Source: Acetobacterium woodii DSM 1030 (lineage in GTDB: Bacteria; Bacillota; Clostridia; Eubacteriales; Eubacteriaceae). From it: DNA of 64,000 bases. The stretch spans positions 2,345,732-2,409,731 of the forward strand of contig NC_016894.1 of assembly GCF_000247605.1 (NCBI RefSeq), given 5' to 3'. Every line of letters starts with the position of its first letter. Position 1 is the stretch's first letter. Below the pieces are notes generated by a model. It ran no database searches and was not told the origin of the DNA. It worked only from the letters and a program-made list of their open reading frames with translations. A program made the translations under genes and the position numbers. Positions 13,240 through 34,524 of this stretch are shown in pieces.

Positions 13240-13480
13240 ATAAAAAAATCGCCCTTATGAAAAGGACGAAATAGTTCCGCGGTACCACCTTAGATTAATA
13301 CAGATTTGTATTCACTTAAAATCGTAACGTGATTAACGTTAGAAGCTATTAGTTAATTAAAAAGCACATAACTTTCACTTCTAAAACTCCAGAGGGAACT
13401 TCACTAAACATAAATATAAAATCTCTCAGCCAAGGATTTTTTCTCTGTAAAATTTAATGAGTAGTTACTTTCTCTTTCAT
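13240..13480 (-). promoter_or_regulatory. T-box riboswitch, tRNA-Phe specific, controlling pheST
   Basis: Read on the minus strand, the leader contains the T-box core AGGTGGTACCGCGG (13277-13290). It is followed by a terminator hairpin (CGTCCTTTTCATAAGGGCG plus T-run, about 13242-13268). Stem I closes with AGAG/CTCT, and the triplet just before the 3' strand is UUC (13396-13398), a Phe codon. Uncharged tRNA-Phe should stabilise the antiterminator and switch on pheST. Confidence 0.9.
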
Positions 13481-13509
13481 CGTTGATAAATATTGTTATT
13501 TTTTTGCTG

Positions 13510-20794: not shown

Positions 20795-21056
20795 AAAAAT
20801 CGCCACTGTATAACAGGGACGAAAAAAATTCGCGGTACCACCTTGCTTTGATGTTTAAGCATCACACTCTGTAAATAACCTTCGTTACTTATCCATGATA
20901 ACGGTTGGTGTCCGGCACAGCCTACTGAGTATTAACTAACCGTTCGGTGGCAGCTCTCAGGATGTATTCACAATAATTATCTTACTTTCTCACACCAAAC
21001 GAAAGCTCTCTTAAAGATTATCCTATTACTACTTCTTCCTGATCATCACTGTATTG
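20795..21056 (-). promoter_or_regulatory. T-box riboswitch upstream of the TrpXYZ-type transporter; specifier reads UAC (Tyr)
   Basis: The minus strand shows the T-box core AAGGTGGTACCGCG (20831-20844) and a terminator (GTCCCTGTTATACAGTGGCGA, then T8, 20791-20822). Stem I closes with CAGGA/TCCTG, and the triplet just before the 3' strand is UAC, followed by A (20964-20966). The same alignment gives UUC for pheST and ACC for thrS in this window, which supports the reading. The leader points toward the transporter, not thrS, so tyrosine starvation should raise transporter expression. Confidence 0.85.
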
Positions 21057-23164: not shown

Positions 23165-23440
23165 AACAAAAAAGCCCCTTTGATAAACAAAGGGACGTAT
23201 TAACGCGGTTCCACCCAATTTGATTTATTTACATAAATCCACTTAAGTTCTGAATAACGGCCAGCACCGAAAATCATACTATCACTAAAGTGTACGTAAT
23301 GTTACCCTTTCATGCTCTTCTGATTTTAACTCAAAGGTGGTTTTCAGTTATCGTAAGTATAAGCAATTACAGCCAAGTTGCTTACTCTCTGAAACGTCCA
23401 GATAACCTAATTGTCCTTATCAACGTCTTTTTTATTTTCT
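23165..23440 (-). promoter_or_regulatory. T-box riboswitch, tRNA-Thr specific, controlling thrS
   Basis: Minus-strand reading: T-box core GGGTGGAACCGCG (23204-23217), then the terminator CGTCCCTTTGTTTATCAAAGGGGC with a T-run (about 23168-23197). Stem I closes with AAGG/CCTT, and the triplet before it is ACC (23339-23341), a Thr codon. Confidence 0.9.
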
Positions 23441-33970: not shown

Positions 33971-34490
33971 AAAAAAAGCTAAAGCCGATTCCACATTTAT
34001 ATGTAAAATCGGCTTCAGCTTTCAATCTCAGATGTCATTTCTTTTGGACTCACCCCTTTCGATTTATCAAAAATTCAAGTTTCAACTTTTCTAAAGCATA
34101 AAACACTTAACTTCTAAAAAAAAATTTTTCATATTATTTTTCTTTAATAAATTACTGCCTCATCAATAGTAGACGATTCTCTTTGATCCATTATTTGTAT
34201 GTATGGTGGCATCTTGATTTAAATATATCGATGCTCATACCCATATGTAAATACCGATCTCTAATTAATCTCACTATGTTTGAATTTACAGCCTACCTCA
34301 TTACTTTCTGGCAAATTGTTAATTTAACAAGAGGTAGTAGTCGATAGAATAGATTTATCTCACTGGTATCATCACAGATCTTCATTTTTGAAAATACCTG
34401 TTACTCTAGATTCTATCGGCAGTTAAGGTTTAATTAACTTTTTACGATCAAATCATTCAATCTAGAAAAAGTTGAACTAACTTTTGATTT
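33971..34490 (-). ncRNA. Candidate ~520-nt non-coding RNA (unknown)
   Basis: A promoter-like element at 34497-34524 points into an ORF-free stretch that ends in a 21-pair terminator hairpin with T7. Within it several pairings are visible on the minus strand: CGATAGAAT with ATTCTATCG (about 34407 and 34335), GGTAT with ATACC inside that, and CTACCTC with GAGGTAG around TTGTTAA/TTAACAA (about 34331-34295). The longest peptides are very short (for example MKNFFLEVKCFML) with poor ribosome binding sites. It does not show the hallmarks of tmRNA, RNase P RNA, 6S or SRP RNA. It may be a new structured RNA, a small regulatory RNA, or a decayed gene. Confidence 0.4.
33972..34020 (-). terminator. Very strong terminator hairpin
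   Basis: On the minus strand AAGCTGAAGCCGATT pairs with AATCGGCTTTAGCTT without a gap (one G-T pair). The stem extends through ACAT/ATGT to a 4-base loop, about 21 pairs, followed by T7. The T-run is only on this strand, so it acts on minus-strand transcripts coming from 34.5 kb. Confidence 0.85.
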
Positions 34491-34496
34491 AAGTAA

Positions 34497-34524
34497 ATTA
34501 TAACACGATATTTATAAAAGTAAA
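34497..34524 (-). promoter_or_regulatory. Predicted promoter of the candidate ncRNA
   Basis: Minus strand: TTTACT (34519-34524), 16 bases, then TATAAT (34497-34502) with an upstream TG one base away (extended -10). The expected transcript start is near 34490. Confidence 0.55.

Follow-up and report, generated by a model that had tools for sequence, protein, structure and literature searches.

The Acetobacterium woodii genome carries a minus-strand stretch, flanked by a DUF2344 gene (with a radical SAM gene before it) and a sodium:alanine symporter gene, that raises the question of which RNA it encodes and what that RNA might do. The window analysed here is a stretch of 64,000 nucleotides (nt; G000:C1:2345732-2409731) of this one-contig genome of 4,044,777 bases, and unprefixed positions below refer to it. 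A prediction from the sequence alone had proposed an ORF-free transcription unit for an undescribed RNA, with an extended -10 promoter, two long-range pairings and a 21-pair terminator, and had named an Rfam search and an alignment with relatives as checks. Our analysis points to a family of large structured RNAs that carry a seven-codon mini-ORF close to the 3′ end. Its features in the window are as follows.

33971-34490, minus strand: whole RNA, about 520 nt; start near 34490 placed from the -10 box, end at the T tract (promoter and terminator positions)
34497-34524, minus strand: putative extended -10 promoter, TTTACT-N16-TATAAT, the -10 box preceded by TG; conserved in copies
34465-34489, minus strand: predicted closing helix (P1/P2), 5′ strand, pairing with 34066-34091; covariation
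34342-34418, minus strand: hairpin of the original prediction, CGATAGAAT (34418-34410) with ATTCTATCG (34350-34342); in the predicted fold, covariation in relatives
34293-34337, minus strand: hairpin of the original prediction, CTACCTC (34337-34331) with GAGGTAG (34299-34293); in the predicted fold of the window copy, relatives give no support
34183-34261, minus strand: internal module, GAUCGGUAUU...AUAUGG, variable stem, CCAU...AAUAAUGGAUC; motif in 27 of 99 full-length copies
34066-34091, minus strand: predicted closing helix, 3′ strand, pairing with 34465-34489; covariation
34050-34059, minus strand: Shine-Dalgarno-like AAAGGGGTGA; similar word in relatives
34015-34038, minus strand: putative seven-codon mini-ORF ATGACATCTGAGATTGAAAGCTGA (MTSEIES, stop); length conserved across the family
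33971-34020, minus strand: predicted intrinsic terminator with T7 tail and the stop codon inside its 5′ arm; compensatory change in 10 of 18 stem pairs

Boundaries of the predicted transcription unit

The candidate promoter comprises TTTACT (34524-34519), a 16-nt spacer and TGTTATAAT (34505-34497) on the minus strand. These hexamers prove little by themselves, because promoter-like matches in the region are at chance level (3, with 5.6 expected from shuffles), and it is conservation that makes the case: a search recovered an extended -10 promoter of the form TTTACT-spacer-TGnTATAAT and the RNA start, with variations, ahead of 99 of the 109 family copies, and in the window at the very place predicted. 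Two of these 99 matches are weak (E values of 0.004 and 0.009), and the one for L087:4805 is the promoter of the upstream neighbouring copy.

At the 3′ end, the predicted fold of the 524-nt RNA contains a hairpin of 23 pairs with a 4-nt loop and a T7 tail; the region holds three terminator-like sites, nested in this one hairpin, where shuffles give 0.2. The very stable minus-strand terminator with T7 that had been predicted is present, with 23 rather than 21 pairs. Between 34562 and 33697 there is no minus-strand ORF of at least 40 amino acids, which bears out the description as ORF-free for long frames, although a conserved seven-codon ORF at 34038-34015 had been missed.

Comparison with catalogued RNAs

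Rfam 15 contains no match at gathering score in the RNA region or in eight related loci. Permissive E-values returned 17 matches, all below gathering, which we discarded; many were to microRNA and snoRNA models, often placed on the terminator hairpin. The RNA is neither 6S RNA nor raiA RNA, for which the sole matches in the genome lie elsewhere (RF00013 at C1:1517012-1517191 and RF03072 at C1:3277070-3277272, respectively). A CsrA sponge of the CsrB/RsmZ type was considered and dropped, as 268 GGA were counted in 55 bodies and 307 were expected from shuffled sequences, which is no enrichment. Three T-box leaders (RF00230) are found on the minus strand of the window, at 13259-13489, 20812-21055 and 23188-23432.

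The proposal of an undescribed RNA is thus supported by the Rfam result together with the conservation and structure of the family described below. We recognised no description of the RNA in the titles and abstract openings of the open-licence literature, and the transcription start site tables and Ribo-seq data for A. woodii (excerpts of PMC8407422) may already contain it.

Distribution of the family

The A. woodii genome has four copies of the RNA. A DNA search gave matches in 18 of 19 genomes of the genus, one to eight per genome and in pieces rather than as whole copies. A covariance model of the 3′ domain (R1, built from 32 sequences) likewise matched 18 of 19 genus genomes with one to nine matches each, or one to eight copies per matching genome once opposite-strand terminator matches are excluded, and it extended to 28 of 40 genomes and six of nine genera of the family. 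A later model, R2 (91 matches), reached 30 of 67 genomes of the order, the only ones outside the family being G059 and G045, both weak. Among 391 genomes searched at the class level, the seven with matches are six of the family and G059. The G045 match was rejected by eye because it falls within the end of a protein gene. The G059 locus reads as a real diverged member outside the family, judging by its layout: AAAGGAAAAG is followed by ATG ACT AGT GAG ATT AAA AAC TAG and a terminator, and the fold has z = -5.3. Its ends show CCUGGGU...ACCCAG complementarity by eye, a pairing absent from the predicted minimum-energy fold.

In total, 121 model matches over 95 loci reduced to 115 unique ones and to 109 copies after six opposite-strand matches to the palindromic terminator were dropped. 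A pattern scan of named contigs, strict enough to miss many copies, returned nine records, eight from Acetobacterium and one from 'Firmicutes bacterium HGW-Firmicutes-4'. Ten copies have no promoter match (L117:8030, L134, L135, L123:1885, L113:391, L127:1806, L136, L114:1727, L122:1904 and L137). Most of them look decayed, since seven of the ten also have no seven- or eight-codon ORF; the remaining three keep a seven-codon ORF.

Some copies lie close together. In L024, two RNA copies (C1:2713157-2713303 and C1:2715470-2715617) lie 2.3 kb from each other and enclose a 450-aa ORF, and some other genomes have a similar pair, that of L041 enclosing a shorter ORF of another kind. L087:4805-5298, a locus of genus g4 within the family, holds two ORF-terminator modules (MVIEQHC and MKPESER) on one strand, about 360 nt from each other, and one shared upstream promoter was found, with no second.

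A closing helix supported by covariation

The window RNA has a predicted fold with z = -6.9, and none of 100 shuffled sequences was equally stable. The start of the RNA, AATCAAAGATCAAC with variations, can pair with GAUUUUUGAU close to the 3′ end, and this predicted helix between the 5′ end and the 3′ part closes the RNA body into one domain. Over 99 copies, the mean duplex energy of the closing strands is -21.3 kcal/mol when they are matched, -16.4 when swapped between copies and -10.8 when shuffled; the 5′ strand of the window copy gives -26.4 kcal/mol with its own 3′ strand and averages -15.5 with the 3′ strands of the 99 copies. The end of the helix could be placed in 89 of 99 copies, where it lies 22-35 nt upstream of the ATG, and in 69 of those 89 it lies 26-28 nt upstream.

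Covariation was assessed in an alignment of 56 of the 67 non-redundant copies, drawn from the 90 of 99 that are under 760 nt; the 11 left out are the most diverged or have an uncertain 5′ end, and their omission favours pairing. For 51 named pairs, 88.8% of cells are standard pairs and 29 pairs have double changes, in comparison with 16.3 in shuffles and 16-20 in slid controls, values that none of the 500 shuffles and none of the slid controls matched. Taken by themselves, the 27 long-range pairs are 85.2% paired and include 16 with double changes (9.9 in shuffles); 3 of 500 shuffles reached their count of further pair types, and none reached the other measures. The weakest long-range helix is the innermost, at 56.9% paired.

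The two pairings listed in the original prediction both appear in the predicted fold of the window copy and fared differently in the same 56 relatives. The first covaries, with 74.6% of cells paired and 25 double-change cells where shuffles give 11.2. The second, in a region poorly aligned across these copies, does not covary, being 44.9% paired and not above shuffles or slid controls. Overall, the alignment that had been called for reveals a conserved and structured family, which does not look like a decayed protein gene, the outcome named beforehand as one that would speak against an RNA.

A mini-ORF of nearly fixed length

Between the closing helix and the terminator of the window copy lies the putative mini-ORF ATG ACA TCT GAG ATT GAA AGC TGA, at positions 2379746-2379769 of the contig. 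The number of sense codons is seven in 99 of the 109 copies, eight in three, nine in one and ten in one, and five copies have no such ORF. Where there is a promoter match, 96 of 99 copies have seven codons and the other three have eight; the mini-ORF is absent solely among promoter-less copies. Two of the eight-codon ORFs have GAA GAG in place of the usual single Glu codon, and the third belongs to a distant genus. In 64 distinct sequences the stop is TGA 26 times, TAG 20 times and TAA 18 times, and never TGG (Fisher p = 3e-6).

The length of this predicted ORF is conserved more than its sequence. For codons 2-6, pN/pS is 0.62 in frame and 1.24 and 0.84 in the shifted frames. Codon 4 (Glu) stands at 0.07 and codons 2, 3, 5 and 6 at 0.89, 0.79, 1.16 and 0.74; codon 7 (2.99), whose last base is at the terminator stem, was for that reason not pooled. 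The peptide may nevertheless matter, as Glu4 and, less strictly, Thr2 are conserved. Of the 67 genomes of the order, 20 contain a strict pattern, approximately M-T-[ST]-E-I followed by two free codons and a stop; 18 of these 20 belong to the genus, and the controls gave 8 hits in total. Pattern sites at G010:C1:3887764, G011:C180:17428 and G029:C35:28080 are not model matches and were taken as chance.

Of the 99 seven-codon copies, 97 have a Shine-Dalgarno-like word from a defined list ahead of the ATG, and in 79 of the 99 the distance is 11-12 nt. Initiation may be weak, as the spacing reported for certain Eubacterium limosum gene clusters is shorter, 7-9 nt (excerpts of PMC5651825). From -22 to +17 around the ATG, the RNA is predicted to be modestly more open than the body (mean unpaired 0.51, compared with 0.44), as holds for 41 of 55 copies. 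A GUCC/GGAC hairpin around the start codon, seen by eye in the MTTEILD subtype, was not seen in the others and was set aside.

Variable bodies between fixed ends

The bodies of paralogues differ greatly in length and sequence, while the ends are fixed; the distance from RNA start to mini-ORF ranges from 185 to 1029 nt. Body folds have z values from -0.8 to -7.9 (22 of 24 tested copies; shuffled controls). Twenty-seven of 99 copies share the internal module GAUCGGUAUU...AAUGGAUC, and its consensus fold, from 26 copies, has compensatory change in 3 of 14 pairs.

In copies from other genera of the family (L084, L086, L087, L088 and L096), a hairpin like ACUUAUAGCAUAUAGAGACUUAAGU recurs in the body by eye, twice in L088; the stem seems to covary, and no GAUCGGUAUU module turned up in the copies concerned. 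In L027, L033 and L023 the RNA is long, at about 1.1 kb, with a middle part roughly 500-600 nt longer than in relatives beside the same genes.

An apparently standalone gene

Gene neighbours were taken as simple ORFs of at least 70 codons rather than curated genes. The downstream ORFs are of many kinds among the copies, and 68 of 107 are co-directional with the RNA, the same ratio as for upstream ORFs (69 of 108). Such per-copy counts are unreliable because copies at orthologous places are not independent. When the copies are grouped into 45 neighbour clusters, the downstream ORF is co-directional in 25 of the 43 clusters with a majority (p = 0.36). As downstream genes point either way, the RNA looks like a standalone gene, without the consistent position 5′ of a co-directional gene that a cis-acting leader would have.

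A candidate ribosome-anchored RNA

As judged from sequence, the RNA family is a multi-copy one of predicted closed, covarying molecules with a promoter and an ORF of near-fixed length. An ORF that is almost always seven codons long and has a Shine-Dalgarno-like word, on a folded RNA, suggests an RNA built to hold a ribosome. Fixed ORF length with a loose sequence also matches the microcin C precursor gene, and it is on this likeness that we propose a ribosome-anchored structured RNA working like Escherichia coli mccA. We consider this reading the most likely one, with a probability of roughly 0.4, and we infer transcription, translation and ribosome retention alike. The helix joining the 5′ end to a segment some 27 nt upstream of the mini-ORF would close the body, leaving a putative ribosome docking site, formed by the Shine-Dalgarno-like stretch and the seven-codon ORF, between helix and terminator. 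A ribosome would load at this 3′ end and translate the mini-ORF repeatedly without leaving, the structured RNA would thereby stay attached to it, and the retained ribosome would perhaps shield the 3′ end or aid termination. A bolder version, which we consider somewhat doubtful, would make this a new RNA class in which a ribosome is held on the 3′ seven-codon ORF for docking and recycling, with the peptide as a by-product, and paralogue-specific bodies act in cis on the ribosome so held, for instance by modifying, storing or positioning it.

Two other readings, each of which we think unlikely, give the mini-ORF a different part. It could be a heptapeptide gene, the structured part of the RNA being a large mRNA leader and the formylated seven-residue product, a signal or a modified-peptide precursor with varying last residues, being what matters. 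The almost invariant Glu4 would fit, as would the variation of the C-terminal residues between copies and the diverged G059 member from another family of the order, whose ORF reads MTSEIKN and uses a serine codon of the other kind (AGT rather than TCN). Constraint on the peptide is weak overall, however, no constant partner gene stands beside the copies in the simple ORF tables, and only 17 of 99 peptides have the Asn end of microcin C precursors; a peptide gene would also leave unexplained the closing helix around bodies that place the ORF so variably far from the start. Alternatively, the bodies might pair in trans with different mRNAs, the mini-ORF of such a dual-function RNA merely stabilising it. 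Several copies per genome, with bodies that vary so greatly between fixed ends, are what this would lead one to expect, but those bodies fold tightly and some of them share the internal module.

Two further readings fare worse. That the copies are a selfish or neutral repeat spread by transposition seems very improbable: they are dispersed, and some have neither promoter match nor ORF, but many keep their neighbours across species (13 lie beside the same ORF kind, cluster 0), the promoter, helices and ORF are conserved, and neither blastn of phage and plasmid records nor two exact patterns run on viral contigs gave a match, searches whose reach is near relatives. We give least credence, and very little at all, to a cis-acting leader or attenuator in which read-through into the following gene would depend on whether the mini-ORF is translated. 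The stop codon inside the terminator arm would suit it, and the next gene in the window, the sodium:alanine symporter gene, is co-directional, as are most downstream ORFs counted per copy; against this stand the orientation by neighbour cluster, the equal ratio for upstream ORFs and the variety of downstream ORFs.

The ribosome-anchored reading is quickly testable, as A. woodii, a gas fermenter, is in culture and public dRNA-seq and Ribo-seq data exist for it (ENA PRJEB33460, reference CP002987; excerpts of PMC8407422). The family adds an apparently uncatalogued large structured RNA to the acetogens. Should the ORF be a ribosome anchor, the RNA would recruit and keep a ribosome without making protein and would provide a natural test of why seven-codon ORFs are special; should ribosome retention hold, it would represent a new RNA class.

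Comparison with known RNAs

The nearest parallel is mccA of the E. coli microcin C operon, which likewise has a seven-codon ORF with a Shine-Dalgarno sequence and a terminator, and whose length counts for more than its sequence (excerpts of PMC6495379, as for the rest of this paragraph). Microcin C precursors conserve length, not sequence. ORFs of two to eight codons can be retranslated without ribosome release; in vitro, about 71 rounds of translation were obtained for 7 codons, 30 for 11 and 6 for 15, and in mccA ribosome binding induces termination. This retention on seven codons was demonstrated in vitro in an E. coli system, not in Clostridia.

The family described here has the same arrangement, a seven-codon ORF with a Shine-Dalgarno-like word before it and a terminator after it, with long Shine-Dalgarno spacing. 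It differs in that mccA requires a C-terminal Asn, whereas 17 of 99 copies end so and the window copy ends in Ser, and in that no constant neighbour was seen in the simple ORF tables, where flanking genes vary from copy to copy. A microcin C precursor gene has the adenylyltransferase gene mccB next to it; the genes next to the window copy are the DUF2344, radical SAM and sodium:alanine symporter genes. We know of no large structured RNA at mccA.

The dual-function small RNAs RNAIII, SgrS and SR1 are likewise RNAs of regulatory type with a small ORF. Their ORFs encode proteins of about 26-43 residues, whereas the ORF here has seven codons and a nearly fixed length. OLE, ROOL, GOLLD and raiA are, like this RNA, long, strongly folded standalone RNAs of unclear function; the RNA described here differs from them in having no Rfam match and in carrying a conserved mini-ORF, which none of the four is known to have. 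Each part of the RNA has a known counterpart, and it is the combination of a large folded RNA with an ORF held at nearly exactly seven codons that, to our knowledge, had not been seen before.
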